A DNA stretch of 64,000 bases from Candidatus Bathyarchaeota archaeon (lineage in GTDB: Archaea > Thermoproteota > Bathyarchaeia > Bathyarchaeales > Bathycorpusculaceae), in assembly GCA_026014745.1 (NCBI GenBank), contig JAOZHS010000001.1, positions 310,001 to 374,000 of the forward strand. Reading direction: 5' to 3'. Shown here piece after piece: positions 45,602 to 50,965 of this stretch (positions within the stretch are counted from its first letter, which is position 1; every line of letters begins with the position of its first letter). A model generated the notes under the pieces. It saw only the letters and a program-made list of their open reading frames with translations. It had not been told where the DNA came from and did no database searches. The position numbers and the translations under genes are program-made.

Positions 45602-45643
45602 CTCTAACCTTTAGAGTGGTATCTCTAACCTGTAGGGCTATAA
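45602..45643 (+). promoter_or_regulatory. Tandem-dyad promoter element, copy A
   Basis: CTCTA-N5-TAGAG, 6 bases, then CTCTA-N5-TAGGG running into CTATAA. The two dyad starts are 21 bp apart. The last A of TATAA is 25 bases before the ATG at 45668, the right spacing for a leaderless archaeal transcript. Confidence 0.8.
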
Positions 45644-45667
45644 TCGTCAACCCCTCATTGTCTGCAA

Positions 45668-46258
45668 ATGTCACTCGTAATTGGGTTAATCACACTCTTT
45701 CTTACTTCGTTTGGTTTAGGGCTAATCCCGTTTGCTGGCCCCTCAACCTTGTTTATCGCTTCTAACGCCGTCCTCCTTTTAGGAGTATCTGATGCGCCAA
45801 CTTTAGCTGCGGTAGCATGTTTGGTGGCGTTTGGCTCCGCTTTGGCAAAAAGCGTGCATTACATGGTTACCTTTTATGCAAGTAACCGCCTAAGCCCCAT
45901 AAGACAGCAACGGTTGAATGCGAGCGCTCAAAAGATTAACCGCTGGGCTTTTCTGCTCCTCTTCGGCGCCGCGTCAACGCCGATTCCTGATGACCCCATC
46001 GTTATTCCGCTTGGCTTAATCAAGTATAGTCCCTACAAGTTTTTCTTAGCCTATTTTTTGGGAAAAATAATTATTACCCTCACAGGTGCATTCATAGGCA
46101 GTTGGACTGGTCAAATGCTCTCCGAGTGGCTAACTCCCGAAGTTACCATAGCGTCTTCAATCATCTTGACGGTGGTCTTCACAGTTATCCTGTTGAAGGT
46201 TGATCTAGGCAAACTAACAGAAAAAATCCTGAGGAAAAAACATGAAGCTGTCGCCTAA
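45668..46258 (+). CDS. VTT/DedA-like membrane protein (YqaA type)
   Basis: Residues 5-190 are largely hydrophobic with about five membrane spans. It carries LLFGAASTPIPDDPIVIPLGLIKYSP, the re-entrant-loop pattern of VTT/DedA proteins that move or scramble lipids and lipid-linked sugars. The ATG lies exactly 25 bases after the TATAA of copy A and no Shine-Dalgarno is seen, so the transcript is probably leaderless. It overlaps the next gene by 17 bases. Substrate is unknown; membrane lipid transport is inferred. Confidence 0.8.
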   Translation: MSLVIGLITLFLTSFGLGLIPFAGPSTLFIASNAVLLLGVSDAPTLAAVACLVAFGSALAKSVHYMVTFYASNRLSPIRQQRLNASAQKINRWAFLLLFGAASTPIPDDPIVIPLGLIKYSPYKFFLAYFLGKIIITLTGAFIGSWTGQMLSEWLTPEVTIASSIILTVVFTVILLKVDLGKLTEKILRKKHEAVA

Positions 46259-47291
46259 ACAGAAACGCGCCATAATAATACCCATACAGGTAGCCGTCAG
46301 CATCCTGTTGCTCTACTTACTATTCCGAAACGTCGACTTGGCACAGGCCCAACAAATCCTATCCGCCACAAATATCCCCATACTCGCGGTTTCGGTGGTT
46401 TTCTTTATTCTCTCCTCGTTTGCCATCGGTATAGGACTCCACAGCGCCCTCAAAGCAACAAACGCTGCGCCCCCCTTCAAAACAACCATGCTTGCCAACT
46501 TCGGCGGTCAACTCTTAAGCGATGTAACCCCCGCCAAGTCAGGCTACTTCGCCACCCCTGTGCTGCTAAACCAGCTCAAAGCGGTACCGCTAGAAAAGGG
46601 TCTGATGAGCGTTATGGCGGTTGGTGCAGGCAACTTTTTCGTCAAAGCTATAATCTCCTCGCTTGCCCTACTCTACTTCCTGTACCGCATACCCGCCACG
46701 GTTATGGATTCCACGATAACTAACGCCTTAGTGGTCGGCATCATAATACTACTCATCTGCGGCATCGGCTTAACTGTGCTTGTTTGGACCAACTATTTCT
46801 CAGGCTTTTTGCAGCGGCTATCAAAGTTGCCCTTGATTGGTCGAGCAATCAAAAAACTCCAAGACATCCGCGTGTTATTCTCTAAAGATAAAGCTGCAAT
46901 GCGCAAATCCATAAAAATCATCGTGGTTTCCGTGCTTGGCTCCGTTCTCTTCAGCGGAATATCCCTCTTTATCTTAGCCCAAGCGATGGGCATGACTGAA
47001 CCCTCACTTGTTGATTTCATGTTCATGGGGCCTTTAACGGCGGCTTTCATGTATGTTCCTATAACTTTTGCTGGGTTGGGTTTGCAGGAAGCAGCTTACG
47101 TCTTTTTACTCACAGGGATAAGTGCACAGCCAGAAGTGATTCTTCCTTTTGCAGTAACCTTCTCTTTGCTGGTTCGTTTAATTGCTGTTACCACGGACCT
47201 TGTCGGGTTGCCTCCTTTGCTAAAAACAAGCGACAGTCTCCTTAATCGCTTTCATCGCCAAAAAACTGCCCCTGAGGTCAAAGAAACCTAA
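46242..47291 (+). CDS. UPF0104/LPG-synthase-TM-like membrane protein
   Basis: The 349-aa protein has about eight membrane spans and motifs of the UPF0104 (lysylphosphatidylglycerol synthase TM / AglD) family: QLLSDVTPAKSGYFATPVLLNQL, PLTAAFMYVPITFAGLGLQEAAYVFLL. Relatives flip lipid-linked sugars or lysyl-lipids. It overlaps the VTT gene by 17 bases, so the two are an operon under copy A. Lipid or dolichol-sugar handling is inferred. Confidence 0.85.
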   Translation: MKLSPKQKRAIIIPIQVAVSILLLYLLFRNVDLAQAQQILSATNIPILAVSVVFFILSSFAIGIGLHSALKATNAAPPFKTTMLANFGGQLLSDVTPAKSGYFATPVLLNQLKAVPLEKGLMSVMAVGAGNFFVKAIISSLALLYFLYRIPATVMDSTITNALVVGIIILLICGIGLTVLVWTNYFSGFLQRLSKLPLIGRAIKKLQDIRVLFSKDKAAMRKSIKIIVVSVLGSVLFSGISLFILAQAMGMTEPSLVDFMFMGPLTAAFMYVPITFAGLGLQEAAYVFLLTGISAQPEVILPFAVTFSLLVRLIAVTTDLVGLPPLLKTSDSLLNRFHRQKTAPEVKET

Positions 47292-47330
47292 AAGTGCATT
47301 GAGCTCAAAGCGGTTTTGATGAGTCAAGTA

Positions 47331-47804
47331 CTATGATTTTAGTTGTTTTATGAGCACTTTGGCTTTTAGGGGCAGTTCGGGTTTGTTTTGCCGGTTTAAT
47401 ATCGAGAAGAAGGCTCCAAAGAATATCAGCCCAAACCCAAACACGGCTATCCCCTCTATGGGTACCACCCCCCATTCCAGCAATAGGGTGAATACGATTA
47501 GGGATATGCCGAGTATGACTATGCCTGCATTGCTCTTAGATGCGGTGGACTGGAGTGTGAACTCTTTTTTACCCAACTCTGTTACTGAGAAGTAGCCTTC
47601 TTTTTCCTCTATCATTGCTGAGGCGACAAGATAGTTCCAGTCGTGATGGAAGTGTCCATCGGACTTGTAGCCTAATGCTGTGGAGATCTGCGATTTTACT
47701 CCGGGAAGGGCTCTGATGCGGCTGTGAGGCGTTGAATAGATGAGGTAGAGTAGTTTGGTTCGCGGTGCCTGTATGTCTGTGTTTATTCCCCTGCTCTTCG
47801 CCAC
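47331..47804 (-). CDS. Winged-helix protein with two membrane helices
   Basis: Residues about 15-80 look like a winged helix (TKLLYLIYSTPHSRIRALPGV, LVASAMIEEKEGYFSVTELGKKEF). Two membrane helices follow at about 92-112 (AGIVILGISLIVFTLLLEWGV) and 116-137. A short basic tail ends it. A membrane-bound regulator is likely. It sits in the middle of the four dyad-element genes and is divergent from copy B, making it the local candidate for their regulator (inference). Confidence 0.7.
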   Translation of the reverse strand: MAKSRGINTDIQAPRTKLLYLIYSTPHSRIRALPGVKSQISTALGYKSDGHFHHDWNYLVASAMIEEKEGYFSVTELGKKEFTLQSTASKSNAGIVILGISLIVFTLLLEWGVVPIEGIAVFGFGLIFFGAFFSILNRQNKPELPLKAKVLIKQLKS

Positions 47805-47863
47805 TTCCTAACCTCCGCTTGTCTACTTTGTTTTTTAGGAGAACACCGAAAAAATGGATATGA

Positions 47864-47905
47864 CTCTATGTCTTAGAGTTGAGGCTCTATATGGTAGAGC
47901 TATAA
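47864..47905 (+). promoter_or_regulatory. Tandem-dyad promoter element, copy B
   Basis: CTCTA-TGTCT-TAGAG, 6 bases, then CTCTA-TATGG-TAGAG followed by CTATAA: the best-preserved copy. Position +25 from the last A is a GTG at 47930, which is out of frame with the PAP2 protein by one base in a run of seven A's. Confidence 0.8.
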
Positions 47906-47940
47906 CACGCAAGCCACACCGCTCTCTGCGTGAAAAAAAC

Positions 47941-48681
47941 TTGCCCACTAAAAATCTGCACCCAACAAAACAAATAAACTATTGGATTCCCGTTTTGTTG
48001 TTGTCTCTTTGCTGTTTTGTGCTAATCGCCATTACACGAAACCTCTTCAGTGGATTCAATCTGACAATAAATTCGTGGGCAGCAAGCATAAACACAGGCG
48101 CCTTAACGCAGCCTTCAGAGATTATCTCTAGCTGTTTTGATACAACAGTGCTGTTTGGTGTTAGTTTTCTGTTCTTCTGTGTCTTGCTCTATAGAGGTCG
48201 CTCTTGGGATGGGTTTTTGCTTTTAGGCGGAATGGGCTTAGACGCGTTTTTACTTGTGCTCTTAAAAACCTTGGTGGATTCACCTAGACCCTTGAATAGT
48301 TTAATCTTGGAAGACAGTTTTTCCTTTCCAAGTGGACACCTGACAAGTACTCTTGTCTTTTTGGGTTTGCTAACTTATCTGGCATGGCGAACCCATAAAA
48401 CACCCTTGAAAATCGGTTTAGCTGTCCTCACACCGTCGCTGGCAGTGCTGGTTGGGTATAATCGGCTATACTTGAATGCCCATTGGTTTACTGACGTGGT
48501 CGCTGCGCCTTTTTTGGCGTTGTTTTTGATTGCGACTACAATTCTAATCTTGCATTACTTACAAGACAAGCAGATTTGGGAACGGCGTTTCTCCCCAACG
48601 CTGTCTACTCTGCGTCTTAGATTTGCTGCTCTATATGGTAGAGCTATAACCCCCAGTAACCGCATAGTGAGGAGTGACTAA
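47941..48681 (+). CDS. PAP2-family membrane phosphatase
   Basis: The phosphatase motifs are KTLVDSPRPLN (near residue 100), SFPSGHLTSTLVFLG and YNRLYLNAHWFTDVVAA, the three conserved blocks of PAP2 acid phosphatases; about six membrane helices surround them. The family removes phosphate from lipid phosphates such as undecaprenyl or dolichyl pyrophosphate. TTG 47941 is the first in-frame start after the promoter element. The open frame extends upstream through copy B, but that part would lie before the transcription start. See the finding on the A7 run. Copy C lies inside its C-terminal codons. Confidence 0.85.
   Translation: MPTKNLHPTKQINYWIPVLLLSLCCFVLIAITRNLFSGFNLTINSWAASINTGALTQPSEIISSCFDTTVLFGVSFLFFCVLLYRGRSWDGFLLLGGMGLDAFLLVLLKTLVDSPRPLNSLILEDSFSFPSGHLTSTLVFLGLLTYLAWRTHKTPLKIGLAVLTPSLAVLVGYNRLYLNAHWFTDVVAAPFLALFLIATTILILHYLQDKQIWERRFSPTLSTLRLRFAALYGRAITPSNRIVRSD
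48608..48649 (+). promoter_or_regulatory. Tandem-dyad promoter element, copy C
   Basis: CTCTG-CGTCT-TAGAT (degenerate first dyad), 6 bases, then CTCTA-TATGG-TAGAG and CTATAA. It is embedded in the last codons of the PAP2 gene. The GTG at 48674 is exactly 25 bases after the last A. Confidence 0.75.
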
Positions 48682-48934
48682 AATGCGTGAGCAAATAGAA
48701 GCAGCCTTCGAATACACTATTGAGCATCCTGAAGCTCTCATGATTTTAGGTGGAATGTTCTTTGCGTTTATCTCTATTTTTACTGCGGCGGTTGATGCTC
48801 AAACAACAAATTTTGTGCGATTTTTAGGCGTGGGGCTGATTGTGCTGGGTGTCTTACTTTATGTGTTGCATTTGGGTTTGCGGTTTTTGATTAGGGCGTT
48901 TCGTAGACTTTTCCACTTAGCCCTCGACCCTTAA
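48674..48934 (+). CDS. Two-helix membrane protein with EHPE motif (paralogue 1)
   Basis: The protein has EYTIEHPEALMILGGMFFAFISIFTAA as first helix region and a second helix (FLGVGLIVLGVLLYVLHLGLRFLI), then a basic tail. GTG 48674 fits the leaderless position; ATG 48683, preceded by GAGGAG, is equally good. The protein is a paralogue of the one at 49120. No function is known. It overlaps the PAP2 stop, but has its own element copy C. Confidence 0.75.
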   Translation: MTKMREQIEAAFEYTIEHPEALMILGGMFFAFISIFTAAVDAQTTNFVRFLGVGLIVLGVLLYVLHLGLRFLIRAFRRLFHLALDP

Positions 48935-49053
48935 CCACCCAAATGATTTTTAGAGCAAAATTAATGCGTTAAAAATGGTTCTTTTCAGGTTTGGTGCCTA
49001 CCTTTGGCTCTTAGTTGTCTGCGGTAAGGCGGGTAATCGGTGTTTTGGTTTAA

Positions 49054-49095
49054 CTCTATACCTTAGAGTTAGGACTCTAATTGGTAGGGCTATAA
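49054..49095 (+). promoter_or_regulatory. Tandem-dyad promoter element, copy D
   Basis: CTCTA-TACCT-TAGAG, 6 bases, then CTCTA-ATTGG-TAGGG and CTATAA. The GTG at 49120 is 25 bases after the last A, as in copies A and C. Confidence 0.8.
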
Positions 49096-49119: not shown

Positions 49120-49368
49120 GTGGTTGGTATGCGACAAAAAACCGAATTCCCCCTCAAATATTCCGTCGAGCACCCTGAAGGTCTAGTCCTGTTAGCAGGC
49201 ATATTCATAGCCTTATTCTTCATCTTCCTCCTTACGTTGGATGTCCACACCATTATTTTTCTGGGGCTCCCCGCCGCAGCCATGGCTATCTTTCTATTCT
49301 ACCTAATGCATCGGATTATGCGATATCCAGTGCGCCGTTTCCAAGAAATAATTCCATCCGCACCTTAA
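49120..49368 (+). CDS. Two-helix membrane protein with EHPE motif (paralogue 2)
   Basis: KYSVEHPEGLVLLAGIFIALFFIFLLTLD matches the first half of its paralogue at 48674, including the EHPE-G/A-L turn before the helix. A second helix (IIFLGLPAAAMAIFLFYLM) and a basic, Arg-rich tail follow. GTG 49120 or ATG 49129 is the start. Function unknown. Two paralogues behind two separate element copies suggest a duplicated gene plus promoter. Confidence 0.75.
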   Translation: MVGMRQKTEFPLKYSVEHPEGLVLLAGIFIALFFIFLLTLDVHTIIFLGLPAAAMAIFLFYLMHRIMRYPVRRFQEIIPSAP

Positions 49369-49386: not shown

Positions 49387-49560
49387 ATGAAGAAAGTTAT
49401 TGCATGGACACTTGCCCTGATTGTTTTGTTGACGCTGTTCATCTTGTTGATGACGCTGGGGTACCTGCTTAACTGTCACCCGCTTGCAATTGCCGCCTTA
49501 GCCGTTTTGACCCTACTTTCGGGGCTATCAACCTACTACGTGCTCTCTCGTGAAACCTGA
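49387..49560 (+). CDS. 57-aa two-helix membrane protein
   Basis: A short gene 18 bases after paralogue 2. It starts MKKVIAWTLALIVLLTLFIL and contains a second helix (AIAALAVLTLLSGLSTYYVL). GGGTGA precedes the ATG by a few bases. Being two-helix and immediately downstream, it is probably in the same operon. It is easily missed because of its length. Confidence 0.6.
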   Translation: MKKVIAWTLALIVLLTLFILLMTLGYLLNCHPLAIAALAVLTLLSGLSTYYVLSRET

Positions 49561-50002: not shown

Positions 50003-50965
50003 TTATTCGCGAACCTCAATTGAATCAACCTTGCCGTCGCCATCCAAATCAAACCCCTGAATAACCACCGCAAAGGTGTCCTCTCCTTTATACTTCTGCA
50101 GGGTAGTTTTCCAAAAATTCGTCAACGCAATCACGCAGGCTTTAGTTCCAACAGCCTTGTTGCCTGCTAACACGATGATACGTTTAGTCTCATCCCATGG
50201 GTTCACGATTTTGGCTATGACGCCTGTGACGTCGGAGGTGAAAATCTGCGACGACTTCTTAGACGCTAACCCGCCTAAGAGAAATCCCTGCGGGGAGGTT
50301 TGCATTATAAATTTGATGGGCAAGTATTCGTTGATTTCCTGCGTGAGCAGGTTGGTGCCCGGACCACCGACGAGGAGTAGGTTGTTTTTTTCTTCTTTTT
50401 CCGCCTTCACGTCCACGTCTAGCTTAACCGCGAACTCTTCGGGGGTGCGCGTGAATTGCCCCAAAAACAGGGCTAAGTGTGCTGCGTAGTGGCCGTCTCG
50501 GGCGCTGGTTTTGAAGGGGCCGTGTGGTTGGGGGCTGCCGACTACGATTTTGCCGTTGAAGGTGGTGTCTTGGATGAATTCTTTGAAGAAGGTTTGGAGT
50601 GGTTTGCTGATGTTTAGGGGGGTGCGGTTTTGGATGGGTTTGTAGCCTTGGGGGAATTCGACGCCGAAGGCGGGTGAGGTGGTTTTGTAGTATTTGGCGG
50701 TTGCGCCTTTCTTTTTTTCTTCTTTGGCGATTTCGATGGCGCCTGCTTTTTGGAGTTTTTTGATGTGGTAGTAGACTTTTTGTTCTTGGATGTCTAGTTT
50801 TTTGGCGATTTCGAGGGGGTACATTTCTTGTTGGCTGAGCATGGTGAGGATTTTCCAGCTTAGGGGGCCGAGGATGGTTTTGAGTTTTTGGGCGTCTTTT
50901 AGGATTGTGATTTCTTTTATTTCTTGGGTGTTGTTGTTTTCTTGGAGGAGCATTTTTTTGTCCAT
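50003..50965 (-). CDS. Winged-helix regulator with S-layer-like domain and EF-hand loop
   Basis: Residues about 30-100 are an ArsR-like winged helix (GPLSWKILTMLSQQEMYPLEIAKKLDIQEQKVYYHIKKLQ). The C-terminal ~150 residues resemble the archaeal S-layer C-terminal domain (LLLVGGPGTNLLTQEINEYLP, IVLAGNKAVGTKACVIALTNFW). The protein ends with DLDGDGKVDSIE, a perfect 12-residue EF-hand calcium loop. No membrane span is visible, so it is cytoplasmic and would be a regulator that uses an S-layer-type sensor. It is divergent from glmS across a palindrome. Confidence 0.72.
   Translation of the reverse strand: MDKKMLLQENNNTQEIKEITILKDAQKLKTILGPLSWKILTMLSQQEMYPLEIAKKLDIQEQKVYYHIKKLQKAGAIEIAKEEKKKGATAKYYKTTSPAFGVEFPQGYKPIQNRTPLNISKPLQTFFKEFIQDTTFNGKIVVGSPQPHGPFKTSARDGHYAAHLALFLGQFTRTPEEFAVKLDVDVKAEKEEKNNLLLVGGPGTNLLTQEINEYLPIKFIMQTSPQGFLLGGLASKKSSQIFTSDVTGVIAKIVNPWDETKRIIVLAGNKAVGTKACVIALTNFWKTTLQKYKGEDTFAVVIQGFDLDGDGKVDSIEVRE

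Follow-up and report, generated by a model that had tools for sequence, protein, structure and literature searches.

The question raised by the locus described here is which protein reads a promoter element that recurs along a stretch of DNA from Candidatus Bathyarchaeota archaeon (assembly GCA_026014745.1, contig JAOZHS010000001.1, positions 310,001 to 374,000 of the forward strand). Within these 64,000 nucleotides, called the window below and numbered from their first letter, four copies of the element lie between 45602 and 49095. This shared promoter element is real. We are fairly confident that a membrane-tethered one-component regulator uses it as its operator; this would be a predicted winged-helix protein with two transmembrane (TM) helices that is encoded on the minus strand at 47331-47804.

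Each copy consists of two 15-bp dyads followed by a TATA-like box on the plus strand. Element 1 (45602-45643) has its distal dyad at 45602-45616, its proximal dyad at 45623-45637 and CTATAA at 45638-45643, and lies upstream of the genes for a VTT/DedA-like and an LPG_synthase_TM protein. Element 2 (47864-47905; distal dyad 47864-47878, proximal dyad 47885-47899, CTATAA 47900-47905) lies between a PAP2 gene and the divergent gene of the winged helix-turn-helix (wHTH) protein named above. Element 4 (49054-49095; distal dyad 49054-49068, proximal dyad 49075-49089, CTATAA 49090-49095) precedes the genes for two small proteins, TM_B and TM57. These three copies match exactly the gap-free pattern CTCTA-N5-TAGAG-N6-CTCTA-N5-TAG(A/G)G-CTATAA, which a preliminary description of this DNA had given for all four. 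Element 3 (48608-48649; proximal dyad 48629-48643, CTATAA 48644-48649), upstream of the gene for TM_A, has two mismatches, both in the distal dyad; it reads CTCTGCGTCTTAGAT-N6-CTCTATATGGTAGAG-CTATAA, so that its proximal dyad is perfect and its distal one (CTCTGCGTCTTAGAT) degenerate. In each of the four, 21 bp separate the starts of the two dyads, as had been stated. When up to three mismatches were allowed, the plus strand of the window held exactly these four sites (45602, 47864, 48608 and 49054), and 100 dinucleotide shuffles gave no match to the pattern at the same threshold.

The repeat unit is the 15-bp dyad, which is better written CTCTAA-N3-TTAGAG than CTCTA-N5-TAGAG. Consensus sequences built from 27 distal and 27 proximal units in two genera show that the half-site CTCTAA is nearly invariant in both genera, and that the two positions are consistently different: the distal consensus is CTCTAA(C/G)(C/T)CTTAGAG, whereas the proximal one is (C/T)TCTAAATG(G/T)TAGGG. 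At the sites read, CTAT or a one-base variant of it always stands directly 3' of the proximal unit, and the distance from this unit to the TATA-like box, CTATA(A/T/G), is invariant. The contact between the proximal dyad and the TATA-like box that had been noticed in the window is thus found in related genomes as well. The position of the transcription factor B (TFB) recognition element (BRE) reads KTAGGG. A k-mer survey of the window's promoters for a local BRE/TATA consensus was dropped because it was too noisy.

How are the units arranged on the DNA? Some loci have three units instead of two, and the upstream units lie 21/22, 32, 42/44 or 53/54 bp from the proximal one. These offsets (21, 22, 32, 42, 44, 53 and 54 bp) give a vector strength of 0.955 at a 10.5-bp period, and each is close to a whole number of B-DNA turns. 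In G012, in G006 and at the sixth site of the source genome, 32 bp (three turns) take the place of 21 bp in the middle gap. Such whole-turn spacing, which also holds in related genomes, supports the idea that proteins are stacked on one face of the DNA, as had been supposed for the window. When DUF996 loci from six species are compared, identity is 95% in the units and TATA box, 32% in the 6-nt spacer and 67-68% in the flanks; in these alignments, the conserved units and TATA box amid variable spacer and flanks are a clear footprint.

This pattern bears on whether the element could be a sequence without regulatory function that spread by recent duplication or as a mobile repeat. Gene duplication does occur here, as two DUF996 loci and the TM_A/TM_B paralogues lie in one genome. 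However, a copied repeat is hard to reconcile with conservation that covers the units and TATA box and not the spacer and flanks, or with unit shifts by whole turns only. The elements also sit just upstream of genes, in a single orientation and with a constant TATA offset, in two genera. We regard this explanation as hardly credible.

The element is found well beyond the window. The full pattern matched only the four window sites across the source genome (G000), and relaxed patterns added two, giving at least six sites at three places: the four in the window, C2:681531 and C1:380397. The last of these is on the minus strand, 6.4 kb past the end of the window, and each of the two additional sites precedes a DUF996 gene. 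One operator therefore stands before several unlinked transcription units of this genome. The "locally clustered regulon" of the preliminary description holds as a set of membrane-protein genes with a common operator, but with two sites outside the window it is not local. A scan of related genomes found the element in two genera, and single-dyad matches at G010:C7:10935 and G022:C89:9853 appear to be fortuitous. The genes remain grouped from species to species, but the set of operators varies: in L060 (G008:C10) the order is regulator gene, three-unit element, PAP2, TM_A with a single dyad, VTT, LPG_synthase_TM, a two-unit element and a two-helix gene. At another related locus (L094:4348-6087, G146) a 579-aa, secreted-looking, Pro/Thr-rich repeat protein is encoded between Trm5 and the regulator gene, where the window has the VTT and LPG_synthase_TM genes.

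Which gene does the element follow from genome to genome? Homologues of the wHTH gene lie beside the elements at nearly all related loci, and a profile built from 13 sequences found the gene in 12 of the 32 genomes of the genus and in 16 of the 257 genomes of the class. An independent search of the 257 genomes with the element pattern returned 15 of these 16 and two others, whose matches are weak and lack a TATA-like box; in G006, the one genome left, reading revealed an element of three units (offsets 22 and 32 bp). Like the element itself, its conservation, its phasing and its target set, this exclusive association with the regulator gene was computed (Fisher p without correction for phylogeny: class, 3e-21; genus, 9e-8). 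Every intact gene copy, 16 in all (two each in G000 and G008; one each in G003, G006, G010, G012, G013, G015, G017, G022, G025, G144, G146 and G147), is divergent from an element, at a distance of about 60-135 bp. The copy in the window, 60 bp from element 2, had been missed in the preliminary description. DUF996, the target of the two additional sites, is ruled out as the determinant of the element: it is multi-copy in the genus (1-10 per genome, 7 in G000), with the element on a minority of copies, and it occurs in 32 of 32 genus genomes whereas the element occurs in 12. For this reason the element tracks the predicted regulator gene and not its target. Elements also stand at loci far from the regulator gene in G010, G013 and G015, which implies action in trans.

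The putative regulator is a protein of 157 aa. Searches of Pfam, NCBIfam and PDB sequences matched it to no known family. An AlphaFold2 model (mean predicted local distance difference test score 77.8, from a four-sequence alignment) has helices at 14-24, 36-44 and 49-61 and wing strands at 65-68/71-74, the helix at about 49-61 being the presumed recognition helix. Two long C-terminal helices follow at 76-110 and 118-138, and hydropathy peaks at 95-113 and 118-136 mark them as probable TM segments. The region LGYKSDGHFHxDWNYL in the predicted helix-turn-helix (HTH) is almost invariant in both genera. In a sample of 398 genomes of the phylum, the only matches outside the protein's genome family were weak (G134 and G360), and a brief look at the G134 locus revealed no obvious dyad. 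A degenerate-peptide scan of IMG/VR contigs for relatives of viral origin found none.

Several observations weigh against this protein as the reader of the element. The co-occurrence is partly phylogenetic. The best Foldseek neighbours of the model are winged-helix regulators (STIV F93, Rv0047c, Sco5413, RosR and LmrR), with a best E of 0.039 and none below E = 0.001. In two genomes the divergent pair of regulator and DUF996 genes has decayed: in G018 (L092, G018:C15) a deletion that runs through their shared promoter took out the element between them together with the beginning of DUF996 and residues 1-27 of the regulator, and in G149 (L096, G149:C1) the regulator gene is full of stop codons; both genomes keep an element before a small two-helix gene. 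The remaining element of G018 is identical to that of G010, whose regulator is intact, and its presence without an intact regulator is consistent with a recent loss. G149 is less easily accounted for, and another reader could be at work there. Elements may persist in these two genomes because the regulator was lost only recently, because one has escaped detection or because a different protein reads them.

Could the element be read by a diverged regulator or a specialised TFB, with the wHTH gene as the mere target of a bidirectional promoter? Elements that outlast the broken gene in G018 and G149 fit this idea, as does a TATA-like sequence on the gene's side. In the window, TCATAT (47858-47863, minus strand) abuts the distal dyad of element 2 and is a possible promoter of the regulator gene; TCATAA is in the same place at eight related DUF996-side loci. 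This TCATA(A/T) on the opposite strand often lies inside a conserved TTTGCTTATGA (window; L056-L059, L068, L070 and L093). However, none of the 241 genomes without the regulator gene carries a convincing element, and a search of G018 and G149 found no second, weaker homologue of the regulator. A mere target would hardly be present at 16 of 16 loci while other targets vary, and conservation along the protein is highest in the DNA-binding helix. We consider another reader unlikely. With the conserved TCATAA on the regulator's side, the element may be a two-way promoter through which the regulator gene is autoregulated.

A second HTH protein is encoded close to the elements. It has 320 aa (50003-50965, minus strand), with an ArsR-type HTH (PF12840, PF01022), a match to an S-layer-like outer domain (PF05124, E = 1.8e-8) and a weakly EF-hand-like C-terminus; its homologues, at 67-80% identity, are constant neighbours of DUF371 in related genomes. 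We rejected it as the reader: it is constant at the Trm5-side loci, but the DUF996-locus elements lie elsewhere and track the wHTH gene, a comparison made at the loci read and not genome-wide.

Based on these results, we have proposed a model for the wHTH protein as the regulator, in which we infer binding, signal and sign of regulation. Cytoplasmic winged-helix dimers would bind each 15-bp dyad through the half-site CTCTAA. Because the units are spaced by whole helical turns, two or three dimers could stack cooperatively on the same DNA face. The proximal dimer would sit on the BRE beside the TATA box and control the access of TFB and the TATA-binding protein (TBP). The two-helix TM anchor would keep the regulator at the membrane and sense a membrane or envelope signal. 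This signal would alter DNA binding and, through it, expression of the DUF996, small two-helix, PAP2, VTT/DedA and LPG-synthase-TM-type genes.

Does the regulator repress or activate? The preliminary description had suggested repression from the overlap of the second dyad with the BRE/TATA zone. The overlap is confirmed; repression is possible only, slightly ahead of activation. Since the BRE lies within the proximal dyad, we give a slight preference to repression that the signal would relieve. Activation by the same regulator is a serious possibility, at a little under even chances: phased dimers would recruit TFB and TBP to an intrinsically weak core promoter, as ArnR and ArnR1 do at flaB. 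These proteins, each with an HTH and two C-terminal TM segments, are activators whose action depends on a pair of 15-bp inverted repeats immediately upstream of the BRE (PMC6396743). BRE/TATA sequences off consensus go with activators (PMC5512572), and here they read KTAGGG and CTATA(A/T/G). The invariant distance between proximal unit and TATA box is also expected where contact geometry matters. All three points, the BRE off consensus, the constant spacing and the example of ArnR, speak for activation. On the other hand, the proximal dyad spans the whole BRE, so a bound protein would compete with TFB, whereas the ArnR-box fragment extends from -84 to -43.

Where translation of the targets begins had also been linked to the element: an ATG or GTG exactly 25 nt after the last A of the TATA-like box was taken to indicate leaderless transcripts. 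Such codons are literally present at 45668, 47930, 48674 and 49120, but the count is misleading. The PAP2 open reading frame (47854-48681) is not in register with GTG 47930, which opens a frame of only 15 codons. GTG 48674 and GTG 49120 each have an in-frame ATG 9 nt further on, and in the TM_A orthologues (L060, L094 and L095) the shared codon is an ATG at about +34 to +37; a GTG at +25 is not consistently present there and is absent in G147. In DUF996 targets the start codon is 48-56 nt downstream, with a Shine-Dalgarno-like GGAGG ahead of it. Reading frames and orthologue start codons thus rule out leaderless starts at +25 as a regulon-wide property, and within G000 only the VTT gene (ATG 45668) fits the rule well and looks leaderless.

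The genes downstream of the elements all encode membrane proteins, as had been described, and this extends to the targets in relatives. Element 1 precedes an operon of the VTT-domain (DedA-like) protein (45668-46258, plus strand; 196 aa; PF09335, E = 1e-9) and the LPG_synthase_TM (UPF0104-type) protein (46242-47291, plus strand; 349 aa; PF03706, E = 4.9e-27). The PAP2 phosphatase gene (plus strand; PF01569, E = 3.6e-14) probably runs from TTG 47941 to 48681; its mechanically called reading frame starts at ATG 47854, upstream of element 2. TM_A (48683-48934, plus strand; likely start ATG 48683, judged from the orthologues above) is a two-helix protein. Its paralogue TM_B (34% identity; 49129-49368, plus strand; likely start ATG 49129) shares an operon with TM57, a 57-aa partner with two predicted helices (49387-49560, plus strand). 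Further targets are DUF996 proteins with a C-terminal zinc ribbon (PF06195), and a two-helix protein beside DUF371 in G008, G010, G013, G015, G018 and G149. G025 has an additional membrane-protein target, whose homologue follows DUF996 at the sixth G000 site. The PAP2 protein is weakly similar to undecaprenyl-diphosphatases, and the VTT protein very weakly to UptA; we would guess that the targets act in lipid-carrier recycling or membrane maintenance. A broader and more tentative reading, which we hold at well short of even chances, is that a minimal switch, a winged helix fused to a membrane hairpin with no sensory domain, senses the state of the membrane and controls a regulon for lipid-carrier and envelope maintenance (PAP2, VTT/DedA, flippase-like and DUF996 proteins) through phased, BRE-occupying dyads. 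Such a system would be an archaeal counterpart of bacterial envelope-stress regulons.

How does this system compare with known ones? The present protein has a predicted winged-helix fold and a putative dyad operator near the promoter, as have winged-helix repressors of the PadR/ArsR/MarR type. However, such proteins in the Foldseek list are soluble, whereas here the wHTH runs into a TM hairpin, and the protein had no match among the Pfam wHTH families. In Sulfolobus, Ss-LrpB binds phased, regularly placed operator boxes. Ptr2 of M. jannaschii uses multiple operator sites upstream of the BRE (PMC5512572). The present element likewise has several regular boxes by the core promoter, but Ptr2 and Ss-LrpB are soluble Lrp-type proteins with no membrane anchor, and their operators are unrelated to this one.

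In open papers we found neither an operator nor a regulon described for Bathyarchaeia, and the preliminary description had known of no regulon with this operator; the closest system is that of ArnR and ArnR1, membrane-bound activators of flaB in Sulfolobus acidocaldarius, whose ArnR boxes are the inverted repeats TCGAC-N5-GTCGA (PMC6396743). Both systems combine an N-terminal HTH (here modelled) and two C-terminal TM segments with two 15-bp N5-N5-N5 inverted repeats by the core promoter, and in both envelope genes are controlled. Unlike ArnR, the present protein has no HAMP and sensory domain; the wing ends at about residue 74 and the helix leading into the membrane begins at 76, which leaves no room for them. 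Its proximal dyad abuts the TATA-like box, whereas the ArnR boxes lie upstream of the BRE, and the half-site differs. ArnR targets are type-IV-pili genes, whereas those found here encode lipid-type membrane enzymes and small membrane proteins. We would therefore say that the system resembles ArnR in action, a likeness of architecture and operator form, and we do not call it a member of the ArnR family. For Bathyarchaeia, which are abundant and uncultured, it offers a concrete regulator-operator pair that can be tested, and it would give a first functional context to DUF996, on which we found no paper in the open literature, and to small two-helix proteins of unknown function. This system and ArnR together suggest a design more widespread in archaea, in which a winged-helix protein tethered to the membrane reads tandem 15-bp dyads by the core promoter.

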